Source: Panopea generosa (Eukaryota; Mollusca; Bivalvia; Adapedonta; Hiatellidae). From it: a DNA stretch of 64,000 bases. Below the pieces are notes generated by a model. That model was not told where the DNA came from and made no database searches. It saw nothing but the letters and a program-made list of their open reading frames with translations. Made by a program: the position numbers and the translations under genes. Where the stretch lies: the NCBI GenBank assembly GCA_029582155.1, contig CM055901.1:48605228-48669227 (forward strand). Direction: 5' to 3'. Shown here piece after piece: positions 8,246 through 57,994 of this stretch (the first letter of the stretch is position 1; the number at the start of each line of letters is the position of its first letter).

Positions 8246-8684
8246 AGATGTGTCAACTTCACATGCTTGCTCTGTCTGTTGTTAAAGTTTTCTGTTTTCT
8301 GAGTTAATTTACATTCAATGCAGTTCTTTTGAGGGAAAAAATCGTTAAGACGGGTAAATCCTTTTGATAAATTATTTGGCAAAATACACCACTTCTAAAA
8401 TAGACACAGTCTTCTGTAAAAATTGTTAAGTAGTTTCTTTGTAACCCTGACACATAAAATACTAGATAATTATCTTCGTGAAATACAAATAAATCTTGTG
8501 CTTTATTATAGCTGTCTTCAATTCTAGTTAGATATCTGCAAAAAAATTCAAATAAAACATGAAAACTTCAATCTAAGCCTTTGCAAAGAGACATGAGAAC
8601 TACAATGGTATGAGTATTTCTTTCCGTTTTGAAACTACTCAGAAAATTTATCTCTTTTTATTAATTTATTTTAGCTCAATTGCG

Positions 8685-8985
8685 ATGAAAGTGTACAGCT
8701 TATATGAACTGCTGTCGAGTTCGTTTCTTAGGTGGAACCAGTACTGAGTGTGTTTTGAGCAAACCTCAAAGTGAACTACACTCAACACCCTCTGTCTGTC
8801 GTTCGCCATCTGTTGTTCACTGTTCGTCCGTGAACTTTTTGTTGGGTGCACTCTAGTACAAGCATTTTTATTGGATCTTTACCAAACTAATACAGTAGTA
8901 TAGAAATTGTCAGAGTTACCGCCCTTGAATCATCAAAAATTGTTATATTTGATGTTGTGTTCACTCTACCACCAGCTTTGTTTAG
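8685..8985 (-). repeat. Fragments of two dispersed repeats (SINE C tail; 160 bp module)
   Basis: 8685-8800 on the minus strand resembles the tail of SINE family C (a GGTTCCACC / CAGTACT segment next to a GAACTCGACAGC-type segment, compare 10905-10965). 8840-8985 on the plus strand is one copy of the ~160 bp module tandemly repeated at 32.7-34.1 kb: it holds GCATTTTTATTGGATCTTTA, ACCAAACTAATACAG and CCCTTGAATCATCAAAAATT. Both are partial and diverged. Confidence 0.45.
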
Positions 8986-9296: not shown

Positions 9297-10822
9297 TTGT
9301 CCATGCATGCATAATAAGAATATACTATCAATTACTTAGTGACTGGTATAATTTGTAATTGGTTACATAGCATGCAAAGAGTTAACTCTCTTATTATTTG
9401 GGAATATGAAGAGTTTCTCAGAACTGACCTAGCACCTCACCCAATTTGGGAATAACTCAGAAACTGTCTCTTTAATAATGGAAAACAACAGTAGAATGAA
9501 CAATCTAAACAAACAAATTGACTAGATACGCATTTTTTTTCCATATAATATTAGAGGTATACATAACAAAATATCGGTCAAGATAAAAAACTAAGCACTA
9601 AGTGAGGCCATAGTATTGTCCTGTACACCAAAACAAATCATAAATCAGAATGATTCAGGATAAATTTTGGCACATGATGTCCTTTGCATATGTCCATAAC
9701 CATAAATGACAAAATATATTATATACTCATGGTGTCCACTCCCATAAATAGTGACTGATGATGGCTGTATGTATGTTAATAACTGGGTGTGCGCAGCACT
9801 TCCGGGTCATCAAGTCTGAAGTAAATCCAGACCAAGGCATTCGTGGCCAGTATGATGTCCAGCACAGAACATAATATTGTAACTGCAGGTACAATACCAG
9901 AATATTGATGTCTGTTGTATAGTTGACTGACTGGTTGACAGTTTTGTGGAGATTCTATGTGACATCTGAGGTTCTTTTACACACATTTGAGGTGTGTTAA
10001 AATAAAATAAATATGTGGAACTTTGTGTAAAATCATATTGCTGTAACCTCTTAGTAATTGCCAAAATTTCCCATTGATATTGAATACCATAATGTAACAA
10101 CGGCGCTAGAACATATTCATGTAATGGCTACATGCAGCAGTCCAGTGAAGTTGTTAACTTCAATATTTGCACAATGTTTAACCGGCCAAATCTGCATGAC
10201 CTTCAGTTTGAAACTCATTGCATCATTGCACAGTTCAAGGAAAAGTGATACAGAGATGTGTATGATAAATGGTTACTTTGACAAGATGTGATTTGGCCGT
10301 TTAAACGTCATGCAAAAATATTTTTCATGACAATATGATTTTATTAGCTCACTTGAGCAAAGCTCAAGCACCTGCTTTTTTTCATTTGGCTTTTGGGCAA
10401 ATCAAACACTCATGTTATTCATGTGCTATGCTAAAGTTGAAAATGCTCCAACCTAAAGAATGCACCAACCAAATCGGTTATGAATGAGTAGTGGTTTCAA
10501 GTTAGTTTATATTTTAGATGGGGTAGGGTGTATTGGGACTGCAAATGCTATGGAAAAGAGATAATTCTCATTTAGGTATCTCTTTGAGCAATTATTTTAT
10601 TCAGCTTCAGATCTGAAACATTGTGTAGTCATAACAGTTTAGGTTGGGACCATTTAAGGTTTCGTATAGAACGTTATGCCTGTCAGTAGATTTTGACCTA
10701 CCAGTAATTCCTCAAATAACGAAAATGCTCCAGGAATGATAAAGTAGGTCAACATCTAACCTCTTCTTATTTTAAATAAAATGGAAGGTGGCTATCTTTA
10801 ATGATATGATAATGATACAAAG
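9297..10822. other. Non-coding stretch
   Basis: No supportable gene. The two open frames at 9810-10100 (minus) and 10058-10291 (plus) overlap head to head, lack splice or start context and look like chance. A 5' fragment of the AGCTCACCTGAGC-headed family is at about 10348-10385, including the perfect hairpin CTTGAGC-AAA-GCTCAAG. The GTAGGTCAACATCTA segment near 10745 recurs at 37369 and 53465, so it is a dispersed repeat fragment. Confidence 0.55.
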
Positions 10823-11015
10823 CAGGGCTGTAGTCTAATGGATAGGGTGTTGGCTGCTCACAACAAAGGTTGCGGATTCGATCCCCAGCTCGACCTGATG
10901 CCTTTCATAAAACAACACTCAGTACTGGTTCTATCCAGGAAGTGGATTCCAGAGCAGCTCATATAAGCCCCTAGCTTTCATCACAATCAAGCAAAAATAA
11001 ATTAGTATAAACTAA
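10823..11015 (+). mobile_element. tRNA-derived SINE, family C, copy 1
   Basis: The head is tRNA-like: TAGTCTAATGGATAGGG (A-box region) and GCGGATTCGATCCCCAGC (B-box region) about 40 bp later. The tail contains CAGTACTGGTTCTATCCAGG and AGCAGCTCATATAAG. Diverged relatives occur at 18045 and, reversed, at 31745, 53690 and 57262. The head is also the best match in the window for the tRNA-like 81 bp units at 45.2-51.6 kb. Confidence 0.75.
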
Positions 11016-18044: not shown

Positions 18045-18175
18045 AAAGTTGTATAGGGTTGACTGCTCGGGCCAGAGGATCCCAAGACCCAACCAGATGA
18101 CCTCTCAGAAACAACTCTCATTACTGGTTTTATCCAGGAAACAATCTCTAGAGTAATTCATATATCACAAATCAG
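18045..18175 (+). repeat. Diverged SINE family C copy 2
   Basis: Matches the family C tail (ATTACTGGTTTTATCCAGGA, then AGAGTAATTCATAT) with a decayed head around 18055-18090. Much less preserved than the copy at 10823. Confidence 0.45.
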
Positions 18176-24734: not shown

Positions 24735-27700
24735 TTGTATGGTATTTAGCATTGCTTCAGTTTTATTTTGACAATGTCTACTCAAGATAGTATTCTGAAT
24801 GCTGCCACACTGGAGTATCATGCCCCAGACACGTGGTATGACGATGTCTACTTGAGATAGTATTCTGAATGCTGCCACACTGGATTGTCATGCCACATAC
24901 ACATGGTATGAAGATGTCTACTTGAGATAGTATTCTGAATGCTGCCACACTGGAGTATCATGCCACATACACATGGTATGAAGATGTCTACTTGAGATAG
25001 TATTCTGAATGCTGCCACACTGGAGTATCATGCCCCAGACACGTGGTATGACGATGTCTACTTGAGATAGTATTCTGAATGCTGCCACACTGGAGTGTCA
25101 TGCCACATACACATGGTATGAAGATGTCTACTTGAGATAGTATTCTGAATGCTGCCACACTGGAGTATCATGCCACATACACATGGTATGAAGATGTCTA
25201 CTTGAGATAGTATTCTGAATGCTGCCACACTGGAGTATCATGCCACATACACATGGTATGAAGATGTCTACTCGAGGTAGTATTCTGAATGCTGCCACAC
25301 TGGAGTATCATGCCCCAGACACATGGTATGACGATGTCTACTCGAGATAGTATTCTGAATGCTGCCACACTGGAGTATCATACCCAAGACACATGGTATG
25401 AAGATGTCTACTAGAGATAGTATTCTGAATGCTGCCACACTGGAGTATCATGCCCCAGACACATGGTATGATGATGTCTACTAGAGATAGTATTCTGAAT
25501 GCTGCCACACTGGAGTATCATACCCAAGACACATGGTATGACGATGTCTACTAGAGATAGTATTCTGAATGCTGCCACACTGGAGTATCATGACGCATAC
25601 ACATTGTATGAAGATGTCTACTAGAGATAGTATTCTGAATGCTGCCACACTGGAGTATCATGCCACATACACATGGTATGAAGATGTCTACTTGAGATAG
25701 TATTCTGAATGCTGCCACACTGGAGTATCATGCCCCAGACACGTGGTATGACGATGTCTACTTGAGATAGTATTCTGAATGCTGCCACACTGGAGTATCA
25801 TGCCCCAGACACGTGGTATGACGATGTCTACTTGAGATAGTATTCTGAATGCTGCCACACTGGAGTATCATGCCCCAGACACGTGGTATGACGATGTCTA
25901 CTTGAGATAGTATTCTGAATGCTGCCACACTGGAGTATCATGACGCATACACATGGTATGAAGATGTCTACTAGAGATAGTATTCTGAATGCTGCCACAC
26001 TGGAGTATCATGCCCCAGACACGGGGTATGACGATGTCTACTTGAGATAGTATTCTGAATGCTGCCACACTGGAGTGTCATGCCACATACACATGGTATG
26101 AAGATGTCTACTTGAGATAGTATTCTGAATGCTGCCACACTGGAGTATCATGCCCCAGACACATGGTATGAAGATGTCTACTAGAGATAGTATTCTGAAT
26201 GCTGCCACACTGGAGTATCATGCCCCAGACACATGGTATGATGATGTCTACTAGAGATAGTATTCTGAATGCTGCCACACTGGAGTATCATACCCCAGAC
26301 ACATGGTATGAAGATGTCTACTAGAGATAGTATTGTGAATGCTGCCACACTGGAGTATCATGCCCCAGACACATGGTATGACGATGTCTACTGGAGATAC
26401 TATTCTGAATGCTGCCACACTGGAGTATCATGCCGCATACACATAGTATGACGATGTCTACTTGAGATAGTATTCTGAATGCTGCCACACTGGAGTATCA
26501 TACCCCAGACACATGGTATGATGATGTTTACTAGAGATAGTATTCTGAATGCTGCCACACTGGAGTATCATGCCCCAGACACATGGTATGACGATGTCTA
26601 CTAGAGATAGTATTCTGAATGCTGCCACACTGGAGTATCATGCCCCAGACACATGGTATGATGATGTCCACTAGAGATAGTATTCTGAATGCTGCCACAC
26701 TGGAGTATCATGTCCCAGACACATGGTATGATGATGTCTACTAGAGACAGTATTCTGAATGCTGCCACACTGGAGTATCATGCCCCAGACACATGGTATG
26801 ATGATGTCTACTAGAGATAGTATTCTGAATGCTGCCACACTGGAGTATCATGCCCCAGACACGTGGTATGACGATGTCTTCTTGAGATAGTATTCTGAAT
26901 GCTGCCACACTGGAGTATCATGCCCCAGACACATGGTGTGACGATGTCTACTAGAGATAGTATTCTGAATACTGCCCCACTGGAGTATCATGCCCCAGAC
27001 AAGTGGTATGATGATGTCTACTAGAGATATTATTCTGAATGCTGCCACACTGGAGTATCATGCCCCAGACACATGGTATGACGATGTCTTCTTGAGATAG
27101 TATTCTAAATGCTGCCACACTGGAGTATCATGCCCCAGACACGTGGTATGATGATGTCTACTTGAGATAGTATTCTGAATGCTGCCACACTGGAGTATCA
27201 TGCCCCAGACACATGGTATGATGATGTCTTCTTGAGATAGTATTCTGAATGCTGCCACACTGGAGTATCATGCCACAGACACATGGTATGACGATGTCTT
27301 CTTGAGATAGTATTGTGAATGCTGCCACACTGGAGTATCATGCCACAGACACATGGTATGACGATGTTTACTCGAGATAGTATTCTGAATACTGCCACAC
27401 TGGAGTATCATGCCGCATACACGTGGTATGAAGATGTCTACTTGAGATAGTATTCTGAATGCTGCCACACTGGAGTATCATGCCCCAGACACGTGGTATG
27501 ACGATGTCTACTTGAGATAGTATTCTGAATGCTGCCACACTGGAGTGTCATGCCACATACACATGGTATGAAGATGTCTACTTGAGATAGTATTCTGAAT
27601 GCTGCCACACTGGAGTATCATGCCACATACACATGGTATGAAGATGTCTACTTGAGATAGTATTCTGAATGCTGCCACACTGGAGTATCATGCCACATAC

Positions 27701-30450
27701 ACATGGTATGAAGATGTCTACTCGAGGTAGTATTCTGAATGCTGCCACACTGGAGTATCATGCCCCAGACACATGGTATGACGATGTCTACTCGAGATAG
27801 TATTCTGAATGCTGCCACACTGGAGTATCTTACCCATGACACATGGTATGAAGATGTCTACTAGAGATAGTATTCTGAATGCTGCCACACTGGAGTATCA
27901 TGATGCATACACATGGTATGAAGATGTCTACTAGAGATAGTATTCTGAATGCTGCCACACTGGAGTATCATGCCACATACACATGGTATGAAGATGTCTA
28001 CTAGAGATAGTATTCTGAATGCTGCCACACTGGAGTATCATGCCCCAGACACATGGTATGGTGATGTCTACTAGAGATAGTATTCTGAATGCTGCCACAC
28101 TGGAGTATCATGCCCCAGACACATGGTATGAAGATGTCTACTAGAGATAGTATTCTGAATGCTGCCACACTGGAGTATCATGCTGCATACACATGGTATG
28201 ACGATGTCTACTGGAGATAGTATTCTGAAAACTGCCACACTGGAGTATCATGCCCCAGACACATGGTATGATGATGTCTACTAGAGATAGTATTCTGAAT
28301 GCTGCCACACTGGAGTATCATGCCCCAGACACATGGTATGAAGATGTCTACTAGAGATAGTATTCTGAATGCTGCCACACTGGGGTATCATGCCCCAGAC
28401 ACATGGTATGATGATGTCTACTAGAGATAGTATTCTGAATGCTGCAACACTGGAGTATCATACCCCAGACACATGGTATGAAGATGTCTACTAGAGATAG
28501 TATTGTGAATGCTGCCACACTGGAGTATCATGCCCCAGACACATGGTATGACGATGTCTACTGGAGATACTATTCTGAATGCTGCCACACTGGAGTATCA
28601 TGCCGCATACACATAGTATGACGATGTCTACTTGAGATAGTATTCTGAATGCTGCCACACTGGAGTATCATACCCCAGACACATGGTATGATGATGTCTA
28701 CTAGAGATAGTATTCTGAATGCTGCCACACTGGAGTATCATGCCCCAGACACATGGTATGATGATGTCTACTAGAGATAGTATTCTGAATGCTGCCACAC
28801 TGGAGTATCATGCCCCAGACACGTGGTATGACGATGTCTTCTTGAGATAGTATTCTGAATACTGCCACACTGGAGTATCATGCCCCAGACAAGTGGTATG
28901 ATGATGTCTACTAGAGATATTATTCTGAATGCTGCCACACTGGAGTATCATGCCCCAGACACATGGTATGACGATGTCTTCTTGAGATAGTATTCTGAAT
29001 GCTGCCACACTGGAGTATCATGCCTCAGACACGTGGTATGATGATGTCTACTTGAGATAGTATTCTGAATGCTGCCACACTGGAGTATCATGCCCCAGAC
29101 ACATGGTATGATGATGTCTTCTTGAGATAGTATTCTGAATGCTGCCACACTGGAGTATCATGCCACAGACACATGGTATGACGATGTCTTCTTGAGATAG
29201 TATTGTGAATGCTGCCACACTGGAGTATCATGCCACAGACACATGGTATGACGATGTTTACTCGAGATAGTATTCTGAATACTGCCACACTGGAGTATCA
29301 TGCCGCATACACGTGGTATGATGATGTCTTCTCGAGATAGTATTGTGAATGCTGCCACACTGGAGTATCATGCCACAGACACATGGTATGACGATGTCTA
29401 CTGGAGATAGTATTCTGAATGCTGCCACACTGGAGTATCATGCCCCAGACACATGGTATGATGATGTCTACTCGAGATAGTATTCTGAATACTGCCACAC
29501 TGGAGTATCATGCCCCAGACACGTGATATGATGATGTCTACTAGAGATAGTATTCTGAATACTGCCACACTGGAGTATCATGCCCCAGACACATGGTATG
29601 ATGATGTCTACTCGAAATAGTATTCTGAATGCTGCCACACTGGAGTATCATACTGCATACACATGGTATGACGATGTCTACTCGAGATAGTATTCTGAAT
29701 GCTACCACACTGAAGTATCATGCCCCAGACACATGGTATGAAGATGTCTACTCGAAATAGTATTCTGAATGCTGCCACACTGGAGTATCATGCCCCAGAC
29801 ACATGGTATGACGATGTCTACTCGAGATAGTATTCTGAATGCTGCCACACTGGAGTATCATGCCCCAGACACATGGTATGATGATGTCTACTAGAGATAG
29901 TATTCTGAATGCTGCCACACTGGAGTATCATGCCCCAGACACATGGTATGATGATGGCTACTAGAAATAGTATTCTGAATGCTGCCACACTGGAGTATCA
30001 TGCCCCAGACACATGGTATGATGATGTCTACTAGAGATAGTATTCTGAATACTGCCACACTGGAGTATCATGCCCCAGACACGTGGTATGACGATGTCTA
30101 CTCGAGATAGTATTCTGAATACTGCCACACTGGAGTATCATGCCCCAGACACATGGTATGAAGATGTCTACTCGAAATAGTATTCTGAATGCTGCCACAC
30201 TGGAGTATCATGACGCATACACATTGTATGAAGATGTCTTCTCGAGATAGTATTCTGAATACTGCCACACTGGAGTATCATGCCGCATACACATGGTATG
30301 ACAACCTGCCCAGTCACATTATACTGACACTAGGATGACCAGCCAAGTTAGAAAGCTTCTAGTACCATTTTACAAGACTTTGGTATGACCTGGCCGAGAC
30401 CGAACCAGCAGCCTTCCAAATGCAAGCGGGACAGTCTAAAAGGAGACCAA
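24735..30450 (-). mobile_element. SINE family D copy 1, interrupted by expansion of its own 70 bp segment
   Basis: Left of the array, 24735-24771 (TATGGTATTTAGCATTGCTT) matches the family D end seen at 39117 and 41585. Right of the array, 30303-30450 continues with CCCAGTCACATTATACTGAC, GGAAGCTTCTAGTACCATTT-type text (AAAGCTTCTAGTACCATTTT here), TTTGGTATGACC and a tRNA-like head read on the minus strand, in the order of the intact copies at 39110-39425 and 41580-41823. The copy at 39.1 kb carries exactly one 70 bp monomer at the corresponding place. So the tandem array is an internal expansion inside one SINE copy. Confidence 0.8.
24773..30302. repeat. 70 bp minisatellite, 79 units, no length change
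   Basis: The unit contains TATTCTGAATGCTGCCACAC, TGGAGTATCATGCCCCAGAC and ACATGGTATGACGATGTCTA then CTNGAGATAG. The landmark TATTCTGAAT is at 24791 in the first unit and 30251 in the last, exactly 78 x 70 bp apart, and I saw every unit in the same register: 79 units without net insertion or deletion. Substitutions define variants (CCCCAGAC or ACATAC; CTCGAG, CTAGAG or CTTGAG). Larger duplications are visible at offsets of 1890-2170 and 2450 bp. The 60-66 residue open frames here are artefacts. Confidence 0.97.
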
Positions 30451-31645: not shown

Positions 31646-31744
31646 ATGCAGATAAAGATGATTTCGGTACAAATTATCCAGTTAGTTTATACTAACTTAT
31701 TATTCTAGTTTGATTACAAAGAAAACTCCAAGCTTACATTATAA

Positions 31745-31885
31745 ACAGCTCTTGAGTTCGCTGCCTAGGTAGAACCAGTATCTAATGTTGTTTATTGAGA
31801 GTCATCTTATCCAGCTGGGGATCAAACCGGCAGTCTCTGGTTTAAGTGGCCAACACTATTCATCGCACTACCCACTTTTTTATCC
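31745..31885 (-). repeat. SINE family C copy 3
   Basis: On the minus strand the order is GTGGGTAGTGCGATGAATAG (A-box region), GGTTTGATCCCCAGCTGG (B-box region), then TACTGGTTCTACCTAGGCAG, as in the family C copy at 10823. The tail is truncated at CTCAAGAG. Confidence 0.6.
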
Positions 31886-44206: not shown

Positions 44207-45110
44207 TAGCTCACCTGAGCCAAGGGCTCACAGGTTAGCTTTTGTGATCGCCTGGTGTCCGTCGTCTGTCTTCCGTTGTTAACTTTTAGTTTCTAATAAC
44301 TTCTCTTCTGAAATCACTAGGCCAATTTTTATATAACTTCACAGAAATGTTCCTTGGGTGACCCTCTACCAAGTTTATTTAAGCCATCTTGATTTGTCAA
44401 AAAACATGGCGCCAGGGGGCGAGGCAAGTTTAATTAGTAAAAACTGAAAAAAATCTTTTTGTCAGAAATTACAGGCTTGATTTTAAAACAATTTCAATGA
44501 AATGTTCCTTGGGTGACCCTCTACCGAGTTTGTTCAAGCCATCTTGATTCGTCAAAATACATGGCTGCCAGGGGGCGGCAAAGTTTAATTAATAAAAACT
44601 TAAAAAAGCTTCTTGTCAGAAACAACAGGCTCGATTTTAAAATAATTTCAATGAAATGTTCCTTGGGTGACCCTTCACCAAGTTTGTTCAAACCGTAGAG
44701 ATTCATAAAAAACATGGGGGCATGGAGGTTGGGTTAGTTTACTTTATAAGCTTAAGTAAAATCTTAAAAAATCTTCTTGTCAGAAACCACCAGATAGATT
44801 TTAAAACAATTTCGCAGAAATGTTCCTTGGGTGACCCTTTACCAAGTTTGTTCAAGCCGTTGTGATTTGTTAAAAAACATGACCGCCACAGAGAAGAGAG
44901 GTGCTAGTTTACTGTATGGGCAGCTATAGTAAAAACTTCCAAAAGCCTTCTTGTCAGAATCTACAGACCTGATTTCGATGTTATTTCACTGACATTTACC
45001 ATTGGTGAACCTTTACAAAGTTTGAACTCACATGTATTATATAATCTACTTAAGTTGGGTGACTCAAGGTCAGTCAGGTGAGCTATATAGGGCCATCTTG
45101 GCCCTTTTGA
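44207..45110 (+). mobile_element. AGCTCACCTGAGC-headed non-autonomous element with ~157 bp modules
   Basis: Begins TAGCTCACCTGAGCCAAGGG and ends with GTCAGGTGAGCTATATAGGG followed by a GGGCCATCTTGGCCC hairpin, so AGCTCACCTGA is inverted at the two ends. Inside are about five tandem ~157 bp modules with AATGTTCCTTGGGTGACCCT, ACCAAGTTTGTTCAAGCC and an AAAACATGGC segment (near 44346, 44501, 44657, 44818, and a decayed one near 44990). No coding capacity. The hairpin near the 3' end is reminiscent of Helitron-like elements, but the required terminal bases are not demonstrated. Confidence 0.65.
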
Positions 45111-45173
45111 TTTAATTTAGCTTGTCTGAGTAGAGCCAAAAGGTTGTGAATTGCTCAAGGCCATCTGGTTGAG

Positions 45174-48100
45174 CAACCCACAACCTCTGGCACAAGCAGC
45201 TGACACTATCCACTGTACTACCACATATTTAACAGCCACGGTTGAGTCGTGGATCAACCCACAACATCTGGCATAAGGAGCTGATACTATCCACTGTACT
45301 ACCACATATTTAACAATCAAGGTTGAGTTTGGGATCAACCCACAACCTCTGGCACAAGGAGCTGACACTATCCACTGTACTACCACATATTTAAAAGTCA
45401 AGGTTGAGTCTGGGATCAAACCACAACCTCTGGCACAAGGAGCTGACAATATCCACTGTACTACCACATATTTAAAAGTCAAGGTTGAGTCTGGGATCAA
45501 CCCACAACCTCTGGCACAAGGAGCTGACACTATCCACTGTACTACCACATATTTAACAGTCAATGTTTAGTCTGGGATCAACCCACAACCTCTGGCATAA
45601 TTGGCTGACACTATCCACTGTACTGCCACATATTTAACAGTCAATGTTTAGTCTGGGATCAACCCACAACCTATGGCATAAGGAGCTAACACTATCCACT
45701 GTACTACCACATATTTAACAGTCAAGGTTGAGTCTGGGATCAACCCACAACCTCTGGCATAAGGAGCTGACACTATCCACTGTACTTCCACATATTTAAC
45801 AGTCAAGGTTGAGTCTGGGATCAACCCACAACCTATGGCATAAGGAGCTAACACTATCCACTGTACTACCACATATTTAACAGTCAAGGTTGAGTCTGGG
45901 ATCAACCCACAACCTCTGGCACAAGGAGCTGACACTATCCACTGTACTACCACATATTTAACAGTCAAGGTTGAGTCTGGGATCAACCCACAATCTCTGG
46001 CATAAGGAGCTGACACTATCCACTGTACTTCCACATATTTAACAGTCAAGGTTGAGTCTGGGATCAACCCACAACCTCTGGCATAAGGAGCTGACACTAT
46101 CCACTGTACTACCACATATTTAACAGTCAAGGTTGAGTCTGGGATCAACCCACAACCTCTGGCATAAGGAGCTGACACTATCCACTGTACTACCACATAT
46201 TTAACAGTCAAGGTTGAGTCTGGGATCAACCCACAATCTCTGGCATAAGGAGCTGACACTATCCACTGTACTACCACATAATTAACAGTCAAGGTTGAGT
46301 CTAGGATCAACCCACAGCCTCTGGCATAAGGAGCTGACAATATCCACTGTACTACAACATATTTAAAAGTCAAGGTTGAGTCTGGAATCAACCCACAACC
46401 TCTGGCATAAGGAGCTGACACTATCCACTGTACTACCACATATTTAACAGTCAAGGTTTAGTCTGGGATCAACCCACAACCTCTGGCATAAGGAGCTGAC
46501 ACTATCCACTGTACTACCACATACTTAAAAGTCAAGGTTTAGTCTGGGATCAACCCACAACATCTGGTATAAGGAGCTGACACTATCCACTGTACTACCA
46601 CATATTTAACAGTCAAGGTTGAGTCTGGGATCAACCCACAACCTCTGGCATAAGGAGCTGACACTATCCACTGTACTTCCACATATTTAAAAGTCAAGGT
46701 TTAGTCTGGGATCAACCCACAACCTCTGGCACAAGGAGCTGACAATATCCACTGTACTACAACATATTTAAAAGTCAAGGTTGAGTCTGGGATCAACCCA
46801 CAACCTCTGGCATAAGGAGCTGACACTATCCACTGTACTACCACATATTTAACAGTCAAGGTTGAGTCTGGGATCAAACCACAACCTCTGGCATAAGGAG
46901 CTGACACTATCCACTGTACTTCCACATATTTAACAGTCAATGTTGAGTCTGGGATCAACCCACAGCCTCTGGCATAAGGAGCTGACACTATCCACTGTAC
47001 TTCCACATATTTAACAGTCAATGTTGAGTCTGGGATCAAACCACAACCTCTGGCATAAGGAGCTGACACTATCCACTGTACTTCCACATATTTAAAAGTC
47101 AATGTTGAGTCTGGGATCAACCCACAACCTCTGGCATAAGGAGCTGACACTATCCACTGTACTACCACATATTTAACAGTCAAGGTTTAGTCTGGGATCA
47201 ACCCACAACATCTGGTATAAGGAGCTGACAATATCCACTGTACTACCACATATTTAAAAGTCAAGGTTTAGTCTGGGATCAACCCACAACATCTGGCATA
47301 AGGAGCTGACACTATCCACTGTACTACCACATATTTAACAGTCAATGTTGAGTCTGGGATCAACCCACAGCCTCTGGCATAAGGAGCTGACACTATCCAC
47401 TGTACTACAACATATTTAAAAGTCAAGATTGAGTCTGGGATCAACCCACAACCTCTGGCATAAGGAGCTGACACTATCCACTGTACTGCCACATATTTAA
47501 AAGTCAAGGTTTAGTCTGGGATCAACCCACAGCCTCTGGCATAAGGAGCTGACACTATCCACTGTACTACCACATATTTAACAGTCAATGTGGAGTCTGG
47601 GATCAACCCACAGCCTCTGGCATAAGGAGCTGACACTATCCACTGTACTGCCACATATTTAACAGTCAAGGTTGAGTTTGGGATAAACCTACAGCCTCTG
47701 GTATAATGGGCTGACACTATCCACTGTACTTCCACATATTTAACAGTCAAGGTTGAGTCTGGGATCAACCAACAACAGATGGTATAAGGAGCTGACACTA
47801 TCCACTGTACTATCACATATTTAACAGTCAAGGTTGAGTCTGGGATCAACCCACAGCCTCTGGCATAAGGAGCTGACACTATCCACTGTACTACCACATA
47901 ATTAACAGTCAAGGTTGAGTCTGGGATCAACCCACAGCCTCTGGCATAAGGAGCTGACACTATCCACTGTACTTCCACATATTTAACAGTCAAGGTTGAG
48001 TCTGGGATCAACCCACAACCTCTGGCATAAGGAGCTGACACTATCCACTGTACTACCACATATTTAACAGTCAAGGTTTAGTCTGGGATCAACCCACAAC

Positions 48101-51100
48101 CTCTGGCATAAGGAGCTGACACTATCCACTGTACTGCCACATATTTAAAAGTCAAGGTTTAGTCTGGGATCAACCCACAGCCTCTGGCATAAGGAGCTGA
48201 CACTATCCACTGTACTTCCACATATTTGACAGTCAATGTTGAGTCTGGGATCAACCCACAGCCTCTGGCATAAGGAGCTGACACTATCCACTGTACTTCC
48301 ACATATTTAACAGTCAAGGTTTAGTCTGAGATCAACCCACAACCTCTGGCATAAGGAGCTGACACTATCCACTGTACTTCCACATATTTAACAGTCAAGG
48401 TTTAGTCTGGGATCAACCCACAACCTCTGGCATAAGGAGCTGACACTATCCACTGTACTTCCACATATTTAACAGTCAAGGTTGAGTCTGGGATCAACCC
48501 ACAACCTCTGGCATAAGGAGCTGACACTATCCACTGTACTACCACATATTTAACAGTCAAGGTTGAGTCTGGGATCAACCCACAACATCTGGCATAAGGA
48601 GCTGACACTATCCACTGTACTGCCACATATTTAACAGTCAAGGTTGAGTCTGGGATCAACCCACAACCTCTGGCATAAGGAGCTGACACTATCCACTGTA
48701 CTTCCACATATTTAACAGTCAAGGTTTAGTCTGGGATCAACCCACAACCTCTGGCATAAGGAGCTGACACTATCCACTGTACTGCCACATATTTAACAGT
48801 CAAGGTTGAGTCTGGGATCAACCCACAACCTCTGGCATAAGGAGCTGACACTATCCACTGTACTACCACATATTTAACAGTCAAGGTTGAGTATGGGATC
48901 AACCCACAACATCTGGCATAAGGAGCTGACACTATCCACTGTACTGTCACATATTTAACAGTCAAGGTTTAGTCTGGGATCAACCCACAACCTCTGGCAT
49001 AAGGAGCTGACACTATCCACTGTACTTCCACATATTTAACAGTCAAGGTTGAGTCTGGGATCAACCCACAACCTCTGGCATAAGGAGCTGACACTATCCA
49101 CTGTACTACCACATATTTAACAGTCAAGGTTGAGTCTGGGATCAACCCACAACCTCTGGCATAAGGAGCTGACACTATCCACTGTACTGCCACGTATTAA
49201 ACAGTCAATGTTGAGTCTGGGATCAACCCACAACATCTGGCATAAGGAGCTGACACTATCCACTGTACTACCACATATTTAACAGTCAATGTTGAGTCTG
49301 GGATCAACCCACAGCCTCTGGCATAAGGAGCTGACACTATCCACTGTACTTCCACATATTTAACAGTCAAGGTTGAGTCTGGGATCAACCCACAACATCT
49401 GGCATAAGGAGCTGACACTATCCACTGTACTTCCACATATTTAACAGTCAAGGTTTAGTCTGGGATCAACCCACAACATCTGGCATAAGGAGCTGACACT
49501 ATCCACTGTACTACCACATATTTAACAGTCAATGTTGAGTCTGGGATCAACCCACAGCCTCTGGCATAAGGAGCTGACACTATCCACTGTACTTCCACAT
49601 ATTTAAAAGTCAAGGTTTAGTCTGGGATCAACCCACAACCTCTGGCATAAGGAGCTGACAATATCCACTGTACTGCCACATATTTAAAAGTCAAGGTTTA
49701 GTCTGGGATCAACCCACAACATCTGGCATAAGGAGCTGACACTATCCACTGTACTACCACATATTTAACAGTCAAGGTTGAGTCTGGGATCAACCCACAG
49801 CCTCTGGCATAAGGAGCTGACACTATCCACTGTACTTCCACATATTTAACAGTCAATGTTGAGTCTGGGATCAACCCACAGCCCCTGGCATAAGGAGCTG
49901 ACACTATCCACTGTACTTCCACATATTTAACAGTCAAGGTTGAGTCTGGGATCAACCCACAGCCTCTGGCATAAGGAGCTGACACTATCCACTGTACTTC
50001 CACATATTTAAAAGTCAAGGTTGAGTCTGGGATCAACCCACAACCTCTGGCATAAGGAGCTGACACTATCCACTGTACTTCCACATATTTAACAGTCAAT
50101 GTTGAGTCTGGGATCAACCCACAGCCTCTGGCATAAGGAGCTGACACTATCCACTGTACTTCCACATATTTAACAGTCAATGTTGAGTCGTGGATCAACC
50201 CACAACCTCTGGCATAAGGAGCTGACACTATCCACTGTACTGCCACATATTTAACAGTCAATGTTGAGTCTGGGATCAACCCACAACCTCTGGCATAAGG
50301 AGCTGACACTATCCACTGTACTTCCACATATTTAAAAGTCAAGGTTTAGTCTGGGATCAACCCACAACCTCTGGTATAAGGAGCTGACACTATCCACTGT
50401 ACTTCCACATATTTAACAGTCAAGGTTGAGTCTGGGATCAACCCACAACCTCTGGCATAAGGAGCTGACACTATCCACTGTACTTCCACATATTTAACAG
50501 TCAATGTTGAGTCTGGGATCAGCCCACAACCTCTGGCATAAGGAGCTGACACTATCCACTGTACTGCCACATATTTAACAGTCAATGTTGAGTCTGGGAT
50601 CAACCCACAACCTCTGGCATAAGGAGCTGACACTATCCACTGTACTTCCACATATTTAAAAGTCAAGGTTGAGTCTGGGATCAACCCACAACCTCTGGCA
50701 TAAGGAGCTGACACTATCCACTGTACTTCCACATATTTAACAGTCAATGTTGAGTCTGGGATCAGCCCACAACCTCTGGCATAAGGAGCTGACACTATCC
50801 ACTGTACTGCCACATATTTAACAGTCAATGTTGAGTCTGGGATCAACCCACAACCTCTGGCATAAGGAGCTGACACTATCCACTGTACTTCCACATATTT
50901 TACAGTCAAGGTTGAGTCTGGGATCAACCCACAACCTCTGGCATAAGGAGCTGACACTATCCACTGTACTACCACATATTTAACAGTCAATGTTGAGTCT
51001 GGGATCAACCCACAGCCTCTGGCATACGGAGCTGACAATATCCACTGTACTAGCCAAATTTAACAGTCAAGGTTGAGTCTGGGATCAACCCACAGCCTCT

Positions 51101-51560
51101 GGCATACGGAGCTGACAATATCCACTGTACTACCACATATTTAACAGTCAAGGTTGAACCTGAGATCAACCCACAGCCTTTGGTAGAAGGAGCTGACACT
51201 ATCCACTGTACTACCACATATTTAACAGCCCAGGTTGAGCCTGAGATCAACTCACAGCCTCTTGCATAAGGAGCTGACCATTATCCACTGTACTACCACA
51301 TATTTAACAGTCAAGGTTGAACCTGAGATCAACCCACAGCCTTTGGTAGAAGGAGCTGACAATATCCACTGTACTACCACATATTTAACAGCCCAGGTTG
51401 AACCTTGGATCAACCCACAACCTCTGGCATAAGGAGCTGACACTTTCCACTGTGCTACCACATATTTAACAGCCAAGGTAAACCTGGGATCAACCCACAA
51501 CCTCTTGCATAAGGTGTTGGCACTATTCACTCTACTACCACATATGTAACAGCCCAGGTT
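45174..51560 (-). repeat. 81 bp array of tRNA-like units, ~79 copies
   Basis: On the minus strand each unit reads GTGGTAGTACAGTGGATAGT, GTCAGCTCCTTATGCCAGAG, GTTGTGGGTTGATCCCAGAC, then TCAACCTTGACTGTTAAATA T. TAGTACAGTGG fits the A-box consensus TRGYNNANNNG exactly. GGTTGATCCC, 42 bp later, is a B-box with the C of GGTTC missing. The whole ~60 bp aligns with the head of SINE family C at 10823. Roughly one unit in five carries TTTT (GACTTTTAAA) about 15 nt after the B-box. Register is kept exactly over long distances (stop-codon positions differ by multiples of 81 from 45648 to 50346). Open frames through the array are artefacts of 81 being a multiple of three. Units at 51040-51560 are clearly more diverged. 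Confidence 0.9.
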
Positions 51561-51668
51561 TTGAAAGCTGGTGTAGTTATTGAGGCAGTTAGTTACATGG
51601 TGATGTAAATGATTATTACTCAATCTGTATGATTCACATTTTATTTTTTGTCCTTCATCATCACACAG

Positions 51669-51750
51669 CCTGGCAGTCTTGATAGATGCTGATTATTTTT
51701 CATCATTAGTTCCAACTTTGATCAGTGCCTGTGCACTTCACTGCAATGAG
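51669..51750 (+). other. Candidate exon (weak)
   Basis: An 82 bp segment after a pyrimidine-rich acceptor (TTTTTGTCCTTCATCATCAC ACAG) and before GAG-GTATTG. With one leading base it is open and reads LAVLIDADYFSSLVPTLISA then CALHCNE; the frame stays open for another ~45 codons if unspliced. No recognised family. It lies in the unique 51.56-52.03 kb stretch between two arrays. Confidence 0.2.
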
Positions 51751-53156: not shown

Positions 53157-53689
53157 ACTAAATCATTGTGTTCTAGTTTTGACTACATTTTGTGATTAAC
53201 TCATGTTACCTTGTTGAACTTTTGTTCCATCTCACATTCTCTGATAATAGTACAAAATGATGCAATCATTCAACTGCACACTGAGTGACATTATAATTAT
53301 GGTATGATACTATTCATTTTGTGAAATAAATAACACCTGATGTTATATATAAATAAATATGACTAATAGTCAAGTAAACAGGATTAAGAATAGGTTACAA
53401 GTTCTAATCAGCTTATATGTTGATCTACTTTCTTGTTGCTGGAGTGATTTCCCTTGGCTGAGGAAGCAGGTCAACATCTATGTAAAACAGAATGCTCTGT
53501 TTAGTAAAATCTGAGTGATTAACTGAGAAAGTGTGTCATGGTACTTTTATATCATTTATTTATATCAGGTACAAGAGCTCCCCTTCATTGTTTAATAAGC
53601 TGCAGTGGAATTGATTTGATTTAAACGTGTTTATTTTACTTTGGTTGTGAAACAAGTTATTGCAACTTGGACAAATCATGGTTGAGGTC
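53157..53689. other. Non-coding stretch
   Basis: A dispersed repeat fragment (TTGGCTGAGGAAGCAGGTCAA near 53456, related to 37357) is the only recognisable item. Confidence 0.5.
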
Positions 53690-53815
53690 TTCCTTGGTAG
53701 AACCAGTACTAAACATAATGGAGATAAAGTGTCTTGATCAAACAAACCACACATAGCTGCTGTTCCATAGGATCGAACTAAAGACGAGTAGCTTGCTGAG
53801 ATTAGCTCATAATCT
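53690..53815 (-). repeat. SINE family C copy 4 (diverged)
   Basis: On the minus strand the family C order is visible: a TAATCTCAGCAAGCTAC A-box region, GTTCGATCCTATGG as B-box region, then TTAGTACTGGTTCTACCAAG. The head is decayed. Confidence 0.5.
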
Positions 53816-56722: not shown

Positions 56723-57994
56723 TAGTCATTTACCTCTCCACTCTTATTTTTATACATGAAATAGGAGATCAGAAGATTATGAGTGGAAATCCTGCCATAC
56801 CCACCTGTAACTTTTTCCGTTCATGTCACATCATATCATGATTTTGACATATCAGAGAATGTATAATTATATTTAATCTGAAACTAAAACAAGAGATGAT
56901 TAAATAGGCATTCGCACAACATTAGGACATAAAAAAACTTTTACATTAATTTAAGTTTTCATTTATTCTGAACATAGTCACATAATTTGTTGTCATTTTG
57001 ATATTGATCACTTGTGTGTCAATCTGACATTAAGAAAATTGTGTCAAGGTGACATAATAATGTAAAAGCTGTACAGAGAGAAATCCACATGATTCTTTGA
57101 AGGAAGTTTGGAGGAAAAAGAAACATCATTAAATAACTAGGATTGGTTATTTCACATTCTGCCAGTGAAGATTTTCTGTATTGTATCAACTTGAGATCTG
57201 GATGCTATTAGTTTATACTCTAATTTATTTTCGCTTGATTGGGAAGAAAGCTTGTAGCATATACGAACCACTCTTGAGTCTGTTTCCTGGGAAGATTCAG
57301 TACTGAGTGTTGTATTTTGAGAGGTGTCAGATCGAGCTGGGGATCATGCTTGCTTGAGCTGTGATGTGCGGAACAAAAATGACCAGACAGTTTTTGATAT
57401 TTCTTAATGTATAATAATGTCATCAAATATTTTACTATGAAATTAGATGAAGTATTGTCTGCTATTAAATGAACTGCTTCCACCATAGCTCCCATTCATT
57501 CATTGTCCAGTGTTTGTGTAAATTACCAAGTCAAACTTAATTCTTTGGTGCTACTAGATTTGTAATTTTGCTGTTGCCTCATTAGTCATGTTTCTGTTAC
57601 TGTGAACAAACTGACAAATGGTTAAAATATTTGAAAATGAGATCCTCAACGATACCTCTTATTTTATGAATCTTACGATACTGGACACATAAATGGTGGT
57701 TTGAAACATGTGCAGGCTGAACAGTTGGAGATGATGTCATTATACCATATTAAGCTCTGACTGAAGGCTACACTCTCCTCCTTATTGGAGAGTTATTTTG
57801 GTCCAAATAATAATGGTATGTATCTATATATTTGGTATTGATACATTATATTAAGAGAATAAAAACATTACCGACTCCCAATACTTCTAACAGTTATTGT
57901 ACTGGTAATAATGTATAATAATGAAATATCACATTGCCAAATAATTATGACCAAAGATTCAATGTATTCTGTAACTTATCTTGTTGCATCATTG
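56723..57994. other. AT-rich non-coding stretch
   Basis: Apart from a SINE C fragment at 57262-57370 (separate entry) no gene or array was seen. Confidence 0.5.
57262..57370 (-). repeat. SINE family C copy 5 (fragment)
   Basis: Minus strand: GCATGATCCCCAGCTCGATC, then AACACTCAGTACTGAATCTT and GGAAACAGACTCAAGAG, the family C head-to-tail order with a decayed A-box region. Confidence 0.5.

Follow-up and report, generated by a model that had tools for sequence, protein, structure and literature searches.

Results

The stretch analysed here (the window) comprises 64,000 nucleotides of the bivalve Panopea generosa (NCBI GenBank assembly GCA_029582155.1, contig CM055901.1, positions 48,605,228 to 48,669,227 of the forward strand), and its position, 48.6 Mb on a contig of 76.7 Mb, is away from the contig ends. 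It harbors a tandem array of about 79 units of 81 bp on the minus strand (45171..51560), in which each unit consists of about 66 bp of the head of a short interspersed element (SINE) and about 15 bp without a counterpart in the SINE. Tandem Repeats Finder (TRF) placed the array at 45174-51560 with a period of 81, 78.9 copies and 94% matches, and the wrap-around alignment gave 45171-51560 with 6149 matches, 240 mismatches, one inserted base and two missing bases. The array contains 78 full units, arranged head to tail, which share a mean pairwise identity of 93.9%, and its minus-strand consensus reads GTGGTAGTACAGTGG...GTGGGTTGATCCCAGACTCAACC. This array is far beyond chance. An earlier note on this DNA, made from the letters alone, had counted about 79 units of 81 bp and described them as an amplified SINE head with internal promoter boxes for RNA polymerase III (pol III). 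The count was reproduced by both methods, and the SINE origin was borne out by the homology search described below.

The own-genome search was performed with 401 bp of the array as the query against 1.47 Gb in 39 contigs, and since only the best candidates were kept, the numbers of matches are lower bounds. The search gave at least 66 matches; of those listed, 22 were the array itself, 10 belonged to arrays on another contig (C12), and 34 were dispersed. The dispersed matches fall in a single slice of the unit, the tRNA-like head. Aligned with their flanks included, they define a single SINE of about 190-195 bp, in which the head and the body are conserved and the upstream sequence is unrelated. 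In the comparison with the SINE consensus, 58 of 67 positions of the array unit are identical, and the SINE-head origin of the array is therefore well supported. The similarity of the units to SINE heads, whose lack the earlier note had listed as a point against its own proposal, was thus found to be real. At the array's 5' edge, the extra 15 bp or so of the unit precedes the first head, and because of this position we read it as the probable 5' flank of the SINE.

At the 3' edge of the array, a degenerate remnant of the SINE body (45106..45173, minus strand) appears to follow directly downstream of the last unit, collinear with its head. The full SINE model aligns across this edge (45224-45111) up to model position 124 with 71.0 bits, which is the highest value of the 85 SINE-model matches in the array (median 60.0). 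The match to the SINE body begins at body-model position 1 precisely where the array exits, and for this reason we accepted the putative remnant, which is identified partly by its position. At the 5' edge (51541..51560, minus strand), AACC and the flank are joined to the first head, and AACC recurs at the 3' edge within CTCAACC, the point at which the unit phase is lost. The number of differences per unit was 3.8 in the first five units and 7.4 in the last five, compared with 2.6 in the middle of the array. The greater divergence of the edge units is as predicted by duplication followed by unequal exchange. Directly left of the SINE remnant, a 164-bp tandem array with its adjoining sequence occupies 44344-45107. 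We presume that this element resembles the end of another mobile element, and it may have replaced the 3' flank of the SINE.

The A-box motif of internal pol III promoters is TRGYNNARNNG and the B-box motif is GWTCRANNC. The box motifs of the array were counted on the minus strand of 45100-51640, with the flanks included. TRGYNNARNNG gave 38 matches against about 79 array units, and the exact A-box-like TAGTACAGTGG was found in 37 copies, while AGTACAGTGG preceded by any base was found in 77. Among the 78 full units, 38 have T as the first A-box base when read on the minus strand, 28 have A and 12 have C, so the exact A-box that the earlier note had assigned to each unit is present in about half of them and altered in its first base in the others. 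For the B-box, 63 exact copies of the remnant GGTTGATCCC and 67 copies of GGTTGATCC were counted, and neither the canonical GGTTCGANNCC nor the relaxed GWTCRANNC occurs in the array (0 copies each). Examples are the A-box-like TAGTACAGTGG at 46101..46111 (minus strand) in the typical unit 46065-46145, and the B-box remnant GGTTGATCCC at 46141..46150 (minus strand), which is the SINE consensus GGTTCGATCCC minus one base. This base is missing in all 78 full units, and the C56 position of the B-box is not C in any of them, whichever side anchors the motif. In the unit consensus the B-box starts 42 bp after the start of the A-box, and TTTT occurs 16 times within 45171-51560, in about one unit in five. 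The one-base deletion, the spacing and the frequency of TTTT all agreed with the earlier description.

On raw counts, the box positions were hit as often as the other positions of the unit. Substitutions per site per unit amount to 0.0348 in the boxes and 0.0370 elsewhere for all 78 units, and to 0.0337 and 0.0317, respectively, for the 72 core units, though a block that includes most of the A-box is invariant in the core. Comparable conservation of the boxes was measured by rotating their positions around the unit. As few distinct variants as in the A-box were found in only 6 of the 81 rotations (8 of 81 in the core), and as few as in the B-box in 58 of 81 (68 of 81 in the core). Selection on both boxes was rejected. 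The head of the unit is 86.6% identical to the SINE consensus, and the dispersed copies show a median of 86.4% and a range of 76-94%, values biased by the fact that these copies were found through their similarity to the array. Two other SINE copies of the window showed 82% and 76%. The head of the array is thus as far from the consensus as the average dispersed copy, as expected of an unselected fossil.

The tRNA likeness of the SINE head was also analysed. The Rfam tRNA model gave a full-length match in one of the 20 SINE loci that were submitted (of 34), with 22.1 bits and an E value of 1.6, where the gathering score is 29. ARAGORN relaxed to 80% called tRNAs in 14 of the 34 dispersed heads, compared with 2 of 1000 dinucleotide shuffles, and in 2 of the 77 array heads and 1 of the 163 C12 units; at full stringency it made no tRNA call among the dispersed heads, the array heads or the C12 units. 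A tRNA-derived origin of the SINE head is modestly supported by these data. The head is tRNA-like, and this likeness is largely lost in the array units. A cluster of tRNA genes was rejected, as ARAGORN found 0 tRNAs in the window and Rfam, searched up to E 10, gave no tRNA match for 44900-51700.

The same SINE head is repeated with a 95-bp unit at four loci of C12 (L047, L048, L049 and L050 at 38.8, 39.1, 39.4 and 39.7 Mb; span 38.79-39.67 Mb), which are mutual segmental duplicates whose reported blocks are 83-96% identical, mostly above 90%. These loci contain 38, 78, 16 and 31 full copies, respectively. In three of the four, the array runs into the SINE body, and ATCAAAA stands at both ends of the repeated segment in those three. 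The 81-bp unit of the window (contig C8) and the 95-bp unit are identical at 49 of 64 positions, and the identity to the SINE is 58 of 67 for the former and 56 of 75 for the latter. Since the two units match each other no better than each matches the SINE, and since their lengths and breakpoints differ, the two head arrays read as probably independent births. The C12 head arrays also adjoin a 37-bp tandem family. Moreover, in 3 of the 34 dispersed copies, parts of the SINE body form tandem arrays of short units, namely in L021 (300-485, 34 bp), L024 (605-1058, 41 bp) and L030 (81-480, 33 bp). The arrays of L021 and L030 derive from the same region of the SINE, about 87-126.

Five further clear copies of the parent SINE and one weaker copy were found in the window. 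Two of the dispersed copies are near-full-length (10822..11015, plus strand; 31682..31872, minus strand), one lacks most of the head (57208..57346, minus strand), one is a body fragment (8655..8766, minus strand) and one is partial (18050..18164, plus strand). Weaker elements that lack a clear copy of the head also match the centre of the SINE body, both in the window (53617-53713) and elsewhere (L057 1168-1258, L062 3415-3577 and L068 1117-1279), as if this central domain were common to other SINE families. We take it to resemble a V-domain.

TRF arrays occupy 48% of the window. Across 20 stretches of 5 kb taken elsewhere (L051-L070), which were hand-picked at round coordinates and total 100 kb, they occupy 28.6%. 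One of these stretches, L064, is a single 44-bp array throughout. With tandem growth so common here, no special cause has to be invoked for a run of 79 units. Another large and homogeneous array of the window (24769-30302; 70-bp unit, 79.1 copies, 93% matches) is unrelated to the SINE, with 272 of 300 shuffles scoring as well. A SINE origin of other window arrays was likewise rejected for the nine units compared, none of which scored clearly above shuffles (best 26 of 300).

Discussion

In this study, we conclude with a probability of about 0.87 that the 81-bp array is a SINE-derived satellite (minisatellite) that was formed in place and has neither a selected function nor working pol III promoters or TFIIIC sites. 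It most likely multiplied by ordinary DNA copying errors. An old SINE copy would have been located here on the minus strand, and replication slippage or end joining may have produced the first tandem duplication between two short matches, the AACC of the flank and that of the SINE. The array would then have been enlarged and homogenised by unequal exchange and gene conversion. The absence of the same B-box base from all 78 units means that the founder was without it or that its loss spread through the array.

Several observations weigh against this interpretation. The body model alone matches the 3' flank (45173-45106, starting at model position 1) with an E value of 0.051, and 17 of 5000 sampled 80-mers scored at least as well as this flank against the SINE body, in a sample that includes some real SINE-like fragments. 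The AACC match at the junction is very short. No target-site duplication was noticed by eye, and no search was made for one. One of the four C12 loci, L047, has no exit into the SINE body. Finally, columns 34-46 of the unit, which include the A-box apart from its first base, are invariant in the 72 core units, and a run of 13 such columns was obtained in 25 of 5000 column shuffles. A purely neutral interpretation must treat this block as luck.

The earlier note had proposed that the array could bind TFIIIC at dozens of sites, with a possible role as a chromatin boundary element, or could give rise to pol III transcripts of about 80 nt or multiples of that length. The A-box-like AGTACAGTGG is indeed retained in nearly all units (77 copies), the block around it is invariant over 13 columns in the core, TTTT stands at 16 places of the array, and the 31 bp that separate the A-box from the B-box remnant in the consensus fall inside the 30-67 bp quoted for tRNA genes in the accessible text of one report (PMC11811891). 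However, the B-box is one base short in every full unit, and GWTCRANNC, which has 0 copies in the array, is found in 14 of the 34 dispersed copies (the canonical GGTTCGANNCC in 9 of 34). The accessible text of the same report states that TFIIIC binding in yeast is lowered 370-fold by C56G and 56-fold by G57C (PMC11811891), and that of another report states that TFIIIC binding to A-box-only DNA is almost abolished (PMC11724288). The critical C56 base is wrong in all 78 units, a standard that comes from yeast and is applied here to an array known from its sequence alone. Moreover, no column of the unit varies more than the first base of the A-box, at which 40 of the 78 units deviate from the majority. 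In the C12 arrays, GWTCRANNC is missing in 162 of 163 units, and TAGTACAGTGG, intact in 101 of 163, shows no more conservation than the other positions. With the B-box defective throughout and the box positions substituted, on raw counts, as often as the rest, the proposed TFIIIC binding, transcription and boundary role are not supported. In our view, the array does not serve as a set of working pol III promoters or TFIIIC sites; its pol III switch is most likely already broken, and the proposal seems very improbable.

The invariant block could also be explained by a factor other than TFIIIC, such as a satellite-binding protein, that maintains the 13-bp AGTACAGTGGATA by binding to it. The 25 of 5000 shuffles speak for this explanation, but the run was picked after the data were seen, as many as 44 of the 81 columns show no variation in the core, and over all 78 units the longest invariant run is 8, which was reached in 185 of 5000 column shuffles. 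The C12 arrays allow this to be examined independently. In them, the 13-mer varies to the same extent as the other positions (0.0429 against 0.0422 substitutions per site per unit), as few A-box substitutions are found in 52 of the 95 rotations, and the A-box is kept in 101 of the 163 units. Because the C12 arrays do not repeat the conservation, we do not take the 13-bp block as selection, yet it leaves an opening to a function. We give maintenance by such a protein no better chance than the TFIIIC proposal. In a variant that we hold to be slightly less probable again, the pol III promoter would have been traded for an A-box-only cluster, in which tau-A of TFIIIC, or a different factor, would bind AGTACAGTGGATA at about 75 sites without a B-box and so mark the chromatin. 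The least credible alternative is a protein made of 27-residue repeats. The unit length is 3 x 27, one frame of the minus-strand consensus is open, and minus-strand open reading frames (ORFs) inside the array reach 268 amino acids, but a variant that introduces a stop into this frame is present in 18 of the 78 units, and the longest ORF covers only about 10 units. Open frames in arrays are common here, as all 19 listed window ORFs of at least 110 amino acids overlap tandem arrays. The protein repeat was rejected on the stop variant and the short reach of the longest ORF.

Taken together, the array looks like a clear fossil of the birth of a satellite and not a new regulatory element. Its resemblance to A- and B-boxes is inherited from the SINE head, which illustrates that such motifs within an array can reflect inheritance rather than function. 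The array also preserves the step from a dispersed SINE to a satellite, with the parent family, the probable 5' flank, the junction repeats and the putative downstream remnant. The SINE head appears to have multiplied twice independently in one genome, as 81-bp and 95-bp units. With the two head arrays and the arrays of body pieces in other copies, this genome is usable to ask what favours tandem growth.

The SINE found here may resemble the mollusc element RUDI. RUDI (Luchetti et al. 2016), a V-SINE, is described as spread in mollusc genomes in the accessible text of two reports (PMC5139131, PMC10294476). Five short stretches of the SINE, used as words in paper texts, returned no paper, and no described tRNA-head satellite of this SINE in molluscs was found in the open-access literature, which misses most subscription journals. 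Within that same scope, no satellite of this form came up for bivalves either, where the earlier note had known of none. For the Antarctic scallop satellites, where tRNAscan-SE was used for A- and B-boxes, the accessible text shows no such satellite (PMC5874043).

The array is a new case of a known kind, the SINE-derived satellite (sSat), as judged from the features described for squamates by Vassetzky et al. (2023), whose paper is cited here from its accessible text (PMC10702118). The units are arranged head to tail with high identity (78 units, 93.9%), and the unit is homologous to part of a dispersed SINE (58 of 67 positions; at least 34 dispersed matches). The last unit would also be extended into the SINE (71.0 bits across the edge), more clearly so in three of the four C12 loci; such a terminal extension is common but not universal in squamate sSats, and a heterochromatic or subtelomeric location is a preference of theirs and not defining (PMC10702118). 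The squamate sSats resemble the present arrays in that a segment of a tRNA-headed SINE is tandemly repeated and further SINE sequence adjoins one end of the array, in several independent births from different SINE parts, and in a similar unit size, 67 nt in snakes. They differ in deriving from other SINE families in another animal group. The snake unit consists of the 3' part of the head with box B and the body (PMC10702118), whereas the 81-bp unit combines the head with its probable 5' flank, and a working B-box motif is missing from both head arrays.

Among molluscs, the closest comparison is PcH-sat of the limpet Patella caerulea, which derives from Nin-SINE and, like the present array, is a satellite of SINE origin without A- and B-boxes, according to the accessible text (PMC11121367). 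It differs in its 179-bp unit, which comes from the 3' part of another SINE, in its abundance of about 10% of the genome and in its pericentromeric location. The array described here has an 81-bp unit from the 5' head and is confined to one locus among the matches listed. Tandem repeats with tRNA-like sequence, or said to have it, are also reported in amphibians, namely PolIII/TAN of newts, OAX of Xenopus, Rana/polIII and Hy/polIII of Hydromantes. Their units are about 200-360 nt where a length is given, and PolIII/TAN is transcribed in vitro. In the accessible text of Vassetzky et al., the link of these families to SINEs is judged unproven (PMC10702118), whereas the parent SINE of the array in P. 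generosa is identified.

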